NCBI RefSeq assembly: GCF_029227915.1
Contig: NC_079886.1
Span: forward strand, 15,228,501 to 15,292,500
DNA from: Hydractinia symbiolongicarpus
Taxonomy: Eukaryota; Cnidaria; Hydrozoa; Anthoathecata; Hydractiniidae
DNA: 64,000 nt
Direction of reading: 5' to 3'
This document shows, in pieces, positions 25,181 through 41,300 of this stretch (the first letter of the stretch is position 1; each line of letters begins with the position of its first letter). Position numbers and translations under genes: made by a program. The notes under the pieces were generated by a model, which made no database searches, was not told the origin of the DNA, and saw only the letters and a list, made by a program, of their open reading frames with translations.

Positions 25181-25505
25181 TATGAACGCAAACAGAGCCT
25201 TACAATTTACAGCAGCGGTTCGTGGCCTTCATGTATTTCAAAACACGTGGAAACCAACTGAAAACGAAACTTTGATTTGCTTGCATGAAACTGGAAATGA
25301 GTATGATCCTTTTAATATTAAAACATGCCAGGTTGATAAATAAAGGAAAATAGTTGGACACTTACCTAGGGAGTTCTCGCGTGCTACAAAATTCCTACTC
25401 GATCGAGGTGGAACCGTTAATACAAAACTGATTGAGACGCATTATAGAAAATCGCCTTTATTCCATGGAGGACTTGAAATTCCTTGCATGGTGACTGTGT
25501 CTCAA
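25181..25505 (+). pseudogene. HIRAN-domain protein fragment, paralogue of 36719-37369
   Basis: From ATG 25181 the frame reads LQFTAAVRGLHVFQNTWKP, later VGHLPREFSRATKFLLDRGG and GGLEIPCMVTV, colinear with the first 110 residues of the intact HIRAN gene at 36719-37369. A TAA interrupts it at about 25341. Similarity stops abruptly after MVTVSQA (about 25505), before the linker and PIP-box region. No transposase or transposon ends were found around it, so it is a lone 5' fragment. Confidence 0.75.
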
Positions 25506-25552
25506 GCTAATTTTTGTTTTTGTTGAACCATGATGGTGCAATCACTCACCCT

Positions 25553-35963: not shown

Positions 35964-36402
35964 AAAAAATACTTGTAATAGCCTAATTTGTAAACTATTT
36001 TTATATAATTCAGATTGACTTTCGTGGTGAAAAATCTCACGATTAAGGAATGGTCTAGGCTGAAATGTCTAAAAATGTGTAAATTGTTAGCTTTCGTTTA
36101 ACACATATATAACTGTACAATTTTTTTTCATTTGCAATCAGTTGCTAGTCTAACAACAACAACAATAATGATAAATATTTAAAGTGTTTCTAGCCCAGAA
36201 AATCACAAAAACCTATTGTTAGTGGATTATTTCCATTGGGGTCCACTGAGTCTGAGTGAAGCTAGCTTTCTCACATTTACCAACCTTAGAGCTAGCTAAG
36301 GTTACAGATCAGATGAATTATTTTTTTCCTTTTAAAATTTAATTTTAGAAGTATAATATCGTTTGTTCTTTGTTTATTAGCGTCTATTTTACATTTCTAA
36401 TA

Positions 36403-36612
36403 CCTTAAGGGAACTTATTTTGGCGGGAACTAATTTTGGCGGATTTGGCGGATTGGGGCAAAATCCGCCAAAATTAGTTCCCGCCAAAATTAAATATTTT
36501 ACTCACCCGCCAAAATTAGTTCCCGCCAAAATTAAAAAAAATCGCCACCCGCCAAAATAAGTTCCCGCCAAAATTAAAAATTTCGTTGATCCGCCAAAAT
36601 AAGTTCCCCTTA
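36403..36612. repeat. left terminus plus subterminal array of the pogo-like element
   Basis: 36403-36446 is the terminal repeat reading inward. From 36466 the sequence runs in the opposite sense: three units of about 43 bp carry CCGCCAAAATTAGTTCCCGC and CAAAATTAAA, ending CCGCCAAAATAAGTTCCCCTTAA. That is the layout of the right terminus, so the left end appears to contain an extra, nested copy of right-end sequence. GTTCCCGCCAAAA occurs three times, plus once inverted. Confidence 0.85.
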
Positions 36613-36718
36613 AAAAATCGACAAAAATCAACTTTTTTTCAATTTTTTATATCTTTTAGAAATATACCTTTGCGCTAGAAATATTATGTCATAATAAACC
36701 TCTAATACAAGATAATTT

Positions 36719-37369
36719 TTAATCAATATTTATGATTTCTAAGTCCTTGCTTGACGATGGTGACGACTTTTTAGGTTTGTTGTTAACTTTTTGCCTTTTT
36801 GGGGCTGGTGCAGCTGAGGTGTTTCCAAAAAAGTTTCGAATATCTTTTTGCTTTTTCGTCTCTTTGCTTTGGCTTTTGGCTGTATTTTTTTTACGCTTTG
36901 GTCTCTCTTCGGTTGGAACCACGACATCTAAAATAACTGCAATATGTAAGAACGAACCAAGAATCAATTCCTCTTTCGGCTCTGTATACAAGGCTTCTAC
37001 AAGTTGTTGGTATCTTGCAAGAACCAAAAGATTGTTTACTGTCCCTGGTAAAGTAACAGTTATTTTACAGGGGATCTCCAAGCCTCCTTGAACGAGAGGT
37101 GATCTTCGATAGTGTACACTTGTCAACGTGGATTTCATAGACGCTCCTCTGTCCAGAAGAAATTTTGTAACCCTTGAGATTTCTTTGGGTAAATGGCCAA
37201 CTGGTTTGTCATTTCCGAATTCACAAACTTTGATTGCAAATCTATCGAAAACATTGTTGTTCTCATGAAAGCAGTCCAGTGATTGATTTTCCTCAGGTTT
37301 CCAATAAGTTTTATAATAATGGAATCCTCTGACAGCAGCTGTAAACTCGAACGTCTTGTTGTAAGCCAT
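36719..37369 (-). CDS. HIRAN-domain protein with PIP box, encoded by pogo-like transposon
   Basis: A 216-residue single-exon ORF. Residues about 7-110 form a HIRAN-like domain: FTAAVRGFHYYKTYWKP, VFDRFAIKV, then VGHLPKEISRVTKFLLDRG. HIRAN domains (as in HLTF/Rad5) bind DNA 3' ends at stalled forks. Residues 110-150 are a second conserved block (LEIPCKITVTLPG, LVEALYTEPKEELILGSFLH). The C-terminal tail is basic with KRKK and PKRQK nuclear-localisation-like clusters. QKDIRNFF (174-181) fits the PCNA-interacting PIP box QxxIxxFF exactly. The protein ends DLEIINID, a hydrophobic/acidic end resembling a SUMO-interaction motif. The role is inferred: recruiting transposition to replication forks. 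It is divergent from the transposase and inside the same terminal repeats. A broken paralogue is at 25181. Confidence 0.85.
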   Translation of the reverse strand: MAYNKTFEFTAAVRGFHYYKTYWKPEENQSLDCFHENNNVFDRFAIKVCEFGNDKPVGHLPKEISRVTKFLLDRGASMKSTLTSVHYRRSPLVQGGLEIPCKITVTLPGTVNNLLVLARYQQLVEALYTEPKEELILGSFLHIAVILDVVVPTEERPKRKKNTAKSQSKETKKQKDIRNFFGNTSAAPAPKRQKVNNKPKKSSPSSSKDLEIINID

Positions 37370-37724
37370 ATGGACGTCTTTTCTTTTCTAGCTCTGATGA
37401 AAAACAAAAATGTCAATCGATCGATTTTTTAATTGCCTAGCATGAAAATAGAACGTTTTTGTTCTATTTGTCAGTGTAGACCGAACTTTCCCAATTAAAT
37501 AGAATGTTTTTGTTCGATTGGTTAGTCTAAACGGGCCTTAGCGAAGAAAAAAAGAATGTTTTTGTTCGATTGGGTAGTCTAAACGGGCCTTAGCCAAGAA
37601 AAAAAGAATGTTTTTGTTCGATTTTTAGTGTAAATATAGGCCAAGTGAATGGAATGTTTATGTTCGAGTAAATATACAGGATACAGATAACTTACGTTTC
37701 CTTTTTTATCTCCCGGCTTTCAAA
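37370..37724. promoter_or_regulatory. divergent promoter region with 50-60-bp tandem repeat
   Basis: The spacer between the two start codons contains about four to five copies (37447-37670) of GAATGTTTTTGTTCGATTGG, TAGTCTAAACGGGCCTTAG, then CGAAGAAAAAAA. The two central copies are nearly identical and the outer ones diverged. Its position between divergent genes suggests a shared promoter or transposase-binding array. No clear TATA box was identified. Confidence 0.6.
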
Positions 37725-39565
37725 ATGTCTTACATCAGGAAGTTAGCTAAATTACAAGAGAAAGAAGCTCAACAAAGGGCCGCTGAAAAGGAAAAAACTT
37801 CAGACGAAACACCTTCAAACAGTTCTAGGGAACAAAGTAAGTATTTCTCTTTGATGTTTTTTTTTGTTATACCTACCTGCGAAGAAGTTTCTTTCTTTGT
37901 TTGAAAATTTTTAATTTTTGGTCAAAATTCGCAATTACATAGTGGTTCGTTTTATTCATTTTAGGCCCACAACCAACTGACTTCCAGCAAGAATCATCCC
38001 TTGGTTCGTTAGACTACGAAGCTGTTACAGACGCGACTGAAAATGTTAAATCCAGTGGCAAAAAATCATACAACCGTTGGTCAGAAAAAGAAAGATTTGA
38101 TATCGGAAAATATGTTGCGATTCATGGTGGTGCGGCTGCAATCACAAAGTTTCAAACCAAAGACAGGCCGTTAAGTGAGAGTACAGCTCGAAGATTTGGC
38201 AATCTTTACAAAAAAGAGCTGAAAGATTCAACCCGAGAAAAACGTAGCGTGGTAACCAAATTTGTTCCTTTGAAACGCGGTAGACCTCTGTTCCTTGGCA
38301 GTCTAGATGAGATGGTACAAAGATTTTTAATTGCACTGAGAAATCGAGGAGGTGTTGTTTCAAGAACAGTTGCAACCGCTGCAGCGAAAGCTCTAATATC
38401 ACGAAACCCTCAATTTGAGTTGGGGCATATTAAAATTGATAACAGTTGGGCAAAAAGCCTCTTCAAGAGAATGGGTTTCAAGAAAAGAATGAAAACGACC
38501 TCCAAAGTTGAAATCACTGAAGGAGCCAAAAAGGAGTGCGAATTACTATTTCTTCACGATATTGTTTCGACCATCGAACAACACAGCATCCCTCACCAAC
38601 TTGTTATGAATCTGGACCAGACACCTCTTAAGTTTGTTCCAAGAATGAATCACACCATGGCGAAAAAGGGTTCATCGTCCGTCCCTATCGTTGGATCTTC
38701 CGACAAAAGATGCCTTACTGGTACCTTTATTATTACGCTTGATGGTTCTTTTCTGCCAATGCAACTGATATATGGGGGGAAAACAAATCAAAGCCTCCCA
38801 AAGTTTGAATTCCCCGAATCGTTCTCACTAAGCGTTAATCCCAAACACTACAGCAATACACAAGAATCCATCAAAGTCATCAAAGAGATCGTTCTAAAGC
38901 ACGTTGAAGACCAGAGGAAGAAGTTAAATAACCCAAAGCAAGCTGCTCTTCTAATATTCGATGTCTTTCGAGGACAAATTACTGAGGAAGTTACCGAATT
39001 GCTGAAGAAGAACAACATCTTCCTGGTTTTGGTTCCAAGTAACATGACACATATATTCCAGCCCTTGGATCTTACTGTGAATAATCATTGCAAGCAATTC
39101 ATGAGAAATTTGTTCACTGAATGGTATTCAAAACAGATCGAGAAAGAGCTATCCCTTAACAAAAAGATCGAAGATATAAATATTCAATTAAAGCTGACCA
39201 CCATCAAGCCTCTTCATGCAAGTTGGCTCCTCCAGTTTTATAACCATATCACTTCGGCAGATGGCCGTGAAGTCGTTTTGAATGGGTGGAAAGCATCTGG
39301 AATTTACGACGCAGTTCGCATGGGATCCACTTCACTTGAATCCCTTGACCCTTTTCAAGATCTATCACCGCTGCCAGAAAGCAATAGTGTAATTACTCAG
39401 CCCATAACCGACATAATCAATGCGCCAGATTTATTAAAGGATAGCTTCATCAACGTGCGAGTCGAAAATGACGATGACAAAGAAGAGGAGTACACGCGTG
39501 ACGAGGATGACATAGACTTTAGTCGGAATGCATTTGACATTATCATAGACGATGAAGAAGAGTAG
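37725..39565 (+). CDS. pogo/Tigger-like DDE transposase, two exons, intact
   Basis: Exon 1 (37725-37836, donor GTAAGT) and exon 2 (37965-39565, acceptor TCATTTTAG) join in phase to 570 codons without a stop. The N-terminus has a Lys/Glu-rich start, then a pipsqueak-type HTH (about 60-110: RWSEKERFDIGKYVAIHGG, STARRFGNLY). Next come a CENP-B-type HTH (150-215: VSRTVATAAAKALI, WAKSLFKRMGFKKRM) and the DDE_1 catalytic core. Catalytic residues are Asp255 (MNLDQTPLKF), Asp370 (LLIFDVFRGQ) and Asp406 (QPLDLTVNNH), giving DD35D. The C-terminus is strongly acidic (EEEYTRDEDDIDF, DDEEE). Length fits Tigger-like transposases. It binds and cuts the element ends, acting in the nucleus. A 128-bp intron near the start is the only interruption. 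Confidence 0.92.
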
Positions 39566-39660
39566 ATTTTTAGTATTTGTTTTAAAATTCTTTGCTTTGT
39601 AATGCTTATTTCTACATCTTTACCAAAGAAAATTTTCGTTGAAATTTGAAAAAATCCTTC

Positions 39661-39879
39661 ACTCGCCAAAATTAGTTCCCGCCAAAATTAAAAAATCCGC
39701 TGACCCGCCAAAATAAGTTCCCGCCAAAATTAAAAAAAACCGCCACCCGCCAAAATAAGTTCCCGCCAAAATTAAAAATTTCGTTGATCCGCCAAAATTA
39801 GTTCCCGCCAAAATTAAATTTTTTTTAGATTTCCTTCGTCCGCCAAAATTAGTTCCCGCCAAAATAAGTTCCCTTAAGG
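39661..39879. repeat. right terminus and subterminal array of the pogo-like element
   Basis: Five units of 40-45 bp contain CGCCAAAATTAGTTCCCGCC and AAAATTAAA, ending in the true terminus AAGTTCCCTTAAGG. ORFs spelling NLILAGTNFGG are repeat artefacts. Confidence 0.9.
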
Positions 39880-39881
39880 TA

Positions 39882-40834: not shown

Positions 40835-40925
40835 GACTTCAAAGGAAATTTCGGCTACATCAAAGGAAAATGAACACATCCACTTTGCCTGTCACAGACA
40901 GACGGACACACTCTCCGTATTATTA
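40835..40925 (+). repeat. repeat family B, 3' end
   Basis: CATCAAAGGAAAATGAACAC, then ATCCACTTTGCCTGTCACAG, then CTCTCCGTATTATTATAAGAGA. The same 3' end occurs at 51300-51384 and 51815-51875. It passes directly into the long (TTA)n tract. Confidence 0.7.
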
Positions 40926-41165
<240 letters not shown>

Positions 41166-41300
41166 TTATTAGTAGTACTATTCTAACATTAGTAGTACTA
41201 TTCTAACATAGTAGTACTATTCTACCTTTTAGTAGTACTATTCTAACAGAGTAGTATTATTCTATCAGCAGGACTATTCTAACATAAAGTAGTATTATTC
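41166..41300 (+). repeat. 20-bp minisatellite TAGTAGTACTATTCTAACAT
   Basis: Six to seven imperfect units, with the GTAGTAC palindromic core kept in most. Confidence 0.85.

Follow-up and report, generated by a model that had tools for sequence, protein, structure and literature searches.

A recently active two-gene pogo transposon of Hydractinia symbiolongicarpus with a recurrent HIRAN partner and a candidate replication-clamp motif

Background

Why would a pogo transposon pair its transposase gene with one for a protein that has a HIRAN domain and a PCNA-type motif? This question is raised by a complete and intact 3,477-bp element at positions 36403–39879 of a 64,000-nucleotide stretch of the Hydractinia symbiolongicarpus genome (the window, which designates this whole stretch). 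Pogo elements have been described with one or two open reading frames encoding transposases (PMC7386202) and Passer elements with a single one (PMC9976928). No printed description of a HIRAN–pogo pairing was found in searches that covered few subscription papers and not Repbase, and the main texts of PMC7386202 and PMC7325037 held no mention of HIRAN, PCNA or "accessory".

The first-pass annotation of this DNA had reported two intact divergent genes within one pair of terminal inverted repeats (TIRs) flanked by a TA duplication, and had proposed that the HIRAN protein places transposition at replication forks. Here we show that this organization is present at 36403–39879 and that HIRAN is a recurrent partner of pogo transposases in the Hydractinia genome. 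Tethering to the replication clamp (PCNA) is the mechanism best supported by our data, as judged from sequence alone.

A young element with two divergent genes

The element ends in perfect 41-bp TIRs on the plus strand (36403–36443 and 39839–39879, arms 100% complementary), with the TA target-site duplication read at each edge (36401–36402 and 39880–39881). Inside this single pair of TIRs, two genes stand head-to-head, the HIRAN gene on the minus strand and the transposase gene on the plus strand. Splicing of two exons (37725–37836 and 37965–39565, with GT/AG borders) produces a 570-aa transposase, as previously annotated, that agrees with the protein LOC130640840 of the same species, encoded by another copy differing at about 2 residues. 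Exon 2 contains a DDE_1 domain (Pfam, E 3.4e-10) with catalytic residues D370 and D406 in DD35D spacing, and a match to HTH_Tnp_Tc5 at the N-terminus was weak and under the profile cut-off (E 0.034). Pogo-superfamily elements are characterized by a DDxD triad with a spacing of 29–59, a TA duplication and TIRs (PMC7386202), and the DDE_1 domain, DD35D spacing, TA duplication and TIRs assign this element to the superfamily. It shares these features with Tigger, pogoR, Passer, Lemi, Fot/Fot-like and Mover elements (IS630-Tc1-mariner), and differs from the described pogo elements by its extra divergent HIRAN gene.

This second gene (36719–37369, minus strand) is an open frame of 216 aa, identified from Pfam, homologues and predicted structure. 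Its HIRAN domain (PF08797, residues 8–86, 37112–37348) scored 32.5 bits against a curated cut-off of 24.7, and the predicted structure supports a HIRAN beta-barrel fold. Downstream, the tail includes QKDIRNFF (residues 174–181, 36827–36850), a match to the PCNA-interacting protein (PIP) box, and terminates with EIINID (residues 211–216, 36722–36739), which is similar to a SUMO-interacting motif (SIM); both motifs had been pointed out in the first-pass annotation and both are conserved among homologues, as detailed below.

A DNA search of the whole 480.9-Mb assembly recovered at least 19 full-length copies of this family (family A), 13 of them identical across all 3,477 bp; scoring covered 40 of 89 candidates, and copy counts are thus lower bounds. 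The HIRAN and transposase frames were both open in 19/19 full-length copies, and TA was present at both ends in the eight copies read. Based on these copies, frames and TA duplications, the element is young and recently active, and has moved as a two-gene unit. Five internally deleted copies each lacked transposase sequence, with HIRAN whole and open in three and cut in two, and one short copy consisted of hardly more than the element ends. In addition, a fragment of another HIRAN gene of the same kind, with a stop in frame, was observed on the plus strand of the window at 25182–25520.

HIRAN as a recurrent partner of pogo transposases

Is this partner a host gene captured only here? First genome searches with homologous HIRAN and transposase queries yielded 150 HIRAN and 79 transposase matches, with candidates partly scored; 61 of these 79 lay within 4 kb of a HIRAN match, always in head-to-head order, where random placement expects 0.28. 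Once a second pair of searches was added, matches merged and extra pieces of already listed loci dropped, 81 of 96 transposase loci of the window's lineage had a HIRAN match within 4 kb, 81 of them divergent and none in the same direction or convergent. Copies within one family are not independent (e.g. 19 of A and 7 of B in the transposase list), and families are therefore a better count than loci. HIRAN was retained in all 11 families read, namely A, B (L039), C (L040), E (L043), F (L041), G (L042), I (L046), K (L068, L076), M72, M73 and M74 (L072–L074). The K and M transposases, 17–24% identical to lineage A–I in a trimmed alignment, represent two further pogo lineages.

Going by the earlier list of HIRAN matches, 15 of the 28 K loci were divergently paired and 13 unpaired, while none of the 59 M-type loci was divergent, one was convergent and 58 had no HIRAN; 20 of the 107 matches behind these counts had been dropped (6 second pieces and 14 from the lineage already counted). 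In this M-type lineage, the most distant one, direct reading revealed HIRAN in 21/21 of the loci read out of these 59 (3/3 and 18/18), always head-to-head, with 0 matches in reversed sequences; L083 and L092, two of the 18, displayed only a C-terminal HIRAN piece at the edge of the stretch read. We thus rejected a confinement of HIRAN to the window's lineage, as all 21 of the presumed HIRAN-less loci that were read carry it.

The identity of these partners was assessed by Pfam in all families except I: HIRAN was above cut-off in A, B and E, the top hit yet below cut-off in C, G, K and M72–M74, and family F gave no Pfam hit. When searched by tblastn against the window alone, the M73, M74, K, F and G proteins matched the window HIRAN gene (E 1e-8 to 1e-19); M72 had no match there, but is 62% identical to M73. 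Separately, the HIRAN-like protein of family F (L041, 2361–3131) displays by eye an extra Cys-rich, zinc-finger-like N-terminus and has no PIP match.

Across the 11 families, HIRAN and transposase distances were correlated (r = 0.866, a value reached by none of 20,000 label shuffles), which favours a long shared inheritance over repeated capture. Chance pairing and host-gene capture were rejected on this co-divergence and on the recurrence of the pairing. Because this two-gene association is found again in many related pogo elements, the partnership looks old and functional, and our results suggest that pogo transposases have long been inherited together with the HIRAN protein, which would be their accessory factor and not a passenger. 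The first-pass annotation had missed this breadth, as well as the PIP or PIP-like motifs found on the transposase in other families. Finally, in family B, the transposase was mostly or wholly lost at L031, L032 and L038 with the HIRAN frame open, an observation drawn from the HIRAN-query set, which is biased.

Putative docking motifs on either partner

Motif conservation was assessed on 140 homologues (120 of 826 found, plus 20 among 120 of 1,361), providing 114 anchored tails, of which 96 had at least 45 residues. A PIP core was identified in 73 of these 96 tails (shuffled mean 0.89), a strict SIM-like C-terminus, following a pattern of our own, in 53 (shuffled mean 0.30), and both together in 44 (shuffled mean 0.00), with a strong conservation of the DIRxFF motif and of the I-x-I-D terminus. 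The window sequence QKDIRNFF fits Qxx[ILM]xxF[FY] and the canonical Q is present in 21 of 70 homologues; functional PIP boxes may be Q-less (PMC6116012). The DIRxFF motif may also resemble the N-terminus of RFC1. A 26-residue tail query against PDB sequences returned no match.

The distance from the end of the PIP box to the C-terminus had a median of 25 residues (range 6–36). In Srs2, six residues separate PIP and SIM, too short for both sites to be used at once (PMC6116012), and the 25-residue median would be long enough to reach both the PCNA and the SUMO sites.

The location of the motif varied between families. A PIP box lies on the HIRAN tail in A, B and I, and in three copies of another family (L062–L064), and the transposase of the window's family had no PIP match. 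Family K instead has a pair of canonical PIP boxes (QTKLFGYF and QSTISSYF) on the transposase, within an inferred exon 1 reading MSTQTKLFGYF...RQSTISSYF...DDDVVYLG (donor GTAAGT, acceptor TTTTCAG, in frame) and identical in both copies read (2/2); a K relative has QTKIQNYF in the same place, under a tentative splice. By shuffling, 0.002–0.05 strict PIP matches are expected per sequence. This reads as a putative docking function that could be carried by either partner, HIRAN or transposase. Transposase C-termini of lineage A (alignment A2) also show a conserved RNAFDxIIDDE-like, SIM-like end, the strict pattern being found in 17 of 30.

Candidate mechanisms

The shared TIRs, recurrence, head-to-head order, co-divergence, predicted HIRAN fold and conserved motifs are directly supported by our data. 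Building on them, we propose that the HIRAN protein could be an adaptor between the transposition complex and replicating DNA. Its barrel would contact DNA ends or fork-like DNA, while the PIP box and terminal SIM-like motif of its unstructured tail would dock on PCNA or SUMO-PCNA. The transposition complex would thereby be tethered to replicating DNA and the element would move in S phase; the donor gap would then be repaired from the sister chromatid, and the element would gain copies. That the protein binds PCNA, SUMO and DNA ends, touches the transposase and couples the element to S phase is in each case predicted from sequence, and we give about an even chance to the overall reading of a recently active two-gene pogo transposon with an old HIRAN partner acting as a replication-clamp adaptor.

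Several known systems display parts of this arrangement. With HLTF and Rad5, the Hydractinia protein shares a predicted common fold, with a weak sequence match; unlike them it stands alone, neither helicase nor RING being seen, and the pocket positions are only partly kept. The Srs2 C-terminus also has a PCNA-type motif followed by a hydrophobic-acidic terminal motif (PMC6116012), although in Srs2 the linker is shorter (6 residues against the median of 25) and the HIRAN homologues have no helicase. A PCNA motif also occurs in another pogo element, the Drosophila one, where it lies on the transposase and not, as in the window's family, on a separate HIRAN protein. Tn7 and insertion sequence (IS) systems are bacterial and involve a different clamp, and we know of no HIRAN in these clamp-binding systems. 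Their transposases bind the beta clamp, in a role alike to the one proposed here, clamp-linked target choice, and the review that describes them reports that pogo transposase binds PCNA in two-hybrid assays through a motif conserved in Tigger and Lemi1, whose relevance it calls unclear (PMC5371812).

A series of observations weighs against the adaptor. The tails of families C and E are degenerate (DIRVMF and DIRDML), M72–M74 bear HIRAN with no PIP match on either protein, and the transposase starts of G (MAKVRDLRDFYK) and F (MALFKYFKK) are PIP-like by eye only and outside the patterns used, the F and G HIRAN tails having no PIP match. The pairing has gaps as well: 15 of the 96 transposase loci are unpaired, and L045, the only one of them read, has no HIRAN-like open frame of at least 130 aa, with TIRs not found there either; at one unpaired locus a HIRAN match lies about 7 kb off (C4:26109776 and C4:26118162). 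Two of the 13 K loci unpaired by the list were read, L076 carrying HIRAN and L075, the K relative, a truncated remnant of it. Within families, HIRAN omega, the ratio of nonsynonymous to synonymous change, was noisy and near neutral (~0.1 to 2.5, with few changes), as expected after insertion. The stacking tyrosines Y72 and Y93 of the HLTF HIRAN pocket (PMC4666394) align with positions that vary across lineages and are only partly kept outside lineage A. Furthermore, fish Passer transposases are active in HeLa cells on their own (PMC9976928). Single-gene pogo elements can thus do without HIRAN, which clearly limits any claim of need.

The fork mechanism of the first-pass annotation thus appears partly supported. 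None of the outcomes that it had named as refuting it was observed: all 19 full-length copies found keep HIRAN open, the gene is not a host gene captured at this one place, and the purifying selection that it expected on HIRAN is seen when the E copies are compared with L060, a related copy (omega 0.10–0.13, a rough value given a saturated dS >2), although not within families. The separate adaptor with a PCNA motif stands in the window's lineage, where the motifs are conserved, but does not extend to all HIRAN-bearing families; since the M families have no PIP match, the putative PIP docking is not obligatory.

Among the alternatives, the one that survives best, although unlikely, is that HIRAN serves the transpososome more generally as a DNA-binding co-factor, attaching to element DNA or to cleaved ends and recruiting the transposase. 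The tail motifs would then act in stability or in retention in the nucleus, with PCNA targeting as a secondary effect; Harbinger elements have a comparable co-factor in their Myb-like second protein. Such a role fits the retention of HIRAN in all 11 families read while PIP is not kept (M72–M74, C, E), the co-divergence, which direct contact between HIRAN and transposase would explain, and the open HIRAN in three of the five deletion copies of family A. It leaves unexplained why DIRxFF and the terminus are so strongly conserved at specific positions, and why PIP boxes lie on the partner protein in K. Distinctly less probable is an interference with the host, whereby the HIRAN–PIP–SIM tail would sequester PCNA or SUMO and block chromatin assembly or repair-linked repression, in analogy with the anti-silencing role of the VANC proteins of plant VANDAL elements. 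A tail with PIP and SIM-like motifs could act as a competitor for PCNA and SUMO, and some copies deprived of most of their transposase retain the HIRAN gene, but the strict head-to-head co-inheritance across very divergent lineages and the PIP boxes of the K transposase both point to the transposition complex.

We consider improbable a role after cleavage, as a copy-number rather than a targeting factor, in which HIRAN would bind the 3' ends of the donor gap and steer repair through PCNA to sister copying: the five internal deletions of family A could be the expected leftovers of incomplete gap repair, but internal deletions are common in many single-gene transposons. This role would fit with the requirement of HLTF fork remodelling for its HIRAN domain, which holds a single-stranded DNA dinucleotide (PMC4666394), and with the recruitment of the anti-recombinases Srs2 or PARI by SUMO-PCNA (PMC6116012), which such a tail could displace.

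Returning to the replication-clamp adaptor, a bolder and doubtful, if possible, extension holds that HIRAN is the ancestral second gene of the pogo superfamily, lost in the well-studied single-gene elements. The pair would carry a portable PCNA-docking module on the HIRAN tail or the transposase N-terminus, depending on the family; in the window's lineage it would have become an Srs2-like tail able to recognize SUMO-PCNA and to link both transposition and gap repair with replication forks. If HIRAN is an old partner, the simple one-gene picture of pogo elements falls short, and their single-gene forms could be the derived state. In some families the PCNA motif belongs to a distinct, conserved partner protein, in another to the transposase itself, and this constitutes a natural experiment that makes the role of the motif testable by simple mutants. 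Hydractinia is kept in laboratories, and this young element with its 13 identical copies is a practical test object.

Other assemblies and published elements

DNA scans outside this genome, on viral and genome contigs, gave no match, and other hosts are therefore represented only by protein hits and contigs of equal size. Between the HIRAN hits (140 contig sizes) and the transposase hits (119) outside the genome, 9 sizes were in common, 8 of them above 2,500 bp, where jittered controls gave means of 1.1 and 0.76 and maxima of 6 and 5 in 5,000 runs. Given this excess, HIRAN–transposase pairs very probably exist in other assemblies. The Passer element of the hydrozoan Clytia is 2,888 bp long for a 475-aa transposase, while eight rows of fish, annelid and frog Passer span 1,755–2,388 bp (PMC9976928); an overlooked HIRAN gene would fit the surplus length of the Clytia element.

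Subterminal repeats and neighbouring features

Repeat comparison revealed 42-bp subterminal repeats on the plus strand at both ends of the element (36464–36608, with CCGCCAAAATWAGTTCCC in each, and 39662–39806). Nine exact TTTGGCGGGAA sites, with the core TTCCCGCC on the opposite strand, occur within 36409–36608 and 39662–39873 and nowhere else in the window; they sit in duplicated units and do not represent nine independent events. Families B and C have four and three TTT[CG]GCGGGAA sites, respectively, and E and I have TTCGCG arrays. We take the TTCCCGCC core to resemble E2F sites. These TTCCCGCC/TTTGGCGGGAA repeats are possibly S-phase promoter or transposase sites, and the E2F reading is kept as a lead; a literature search found no paper on E2F-like sites in such elements. 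Between the divergent genes, four tandem repeats of about 52 bp (37446–37652) may constitute a candidate shared bidirectional promoter. Beyond the right end of the element, a 100-aa open frame composed mostly of leucine (40870–41172) has a simple-repeat origin.

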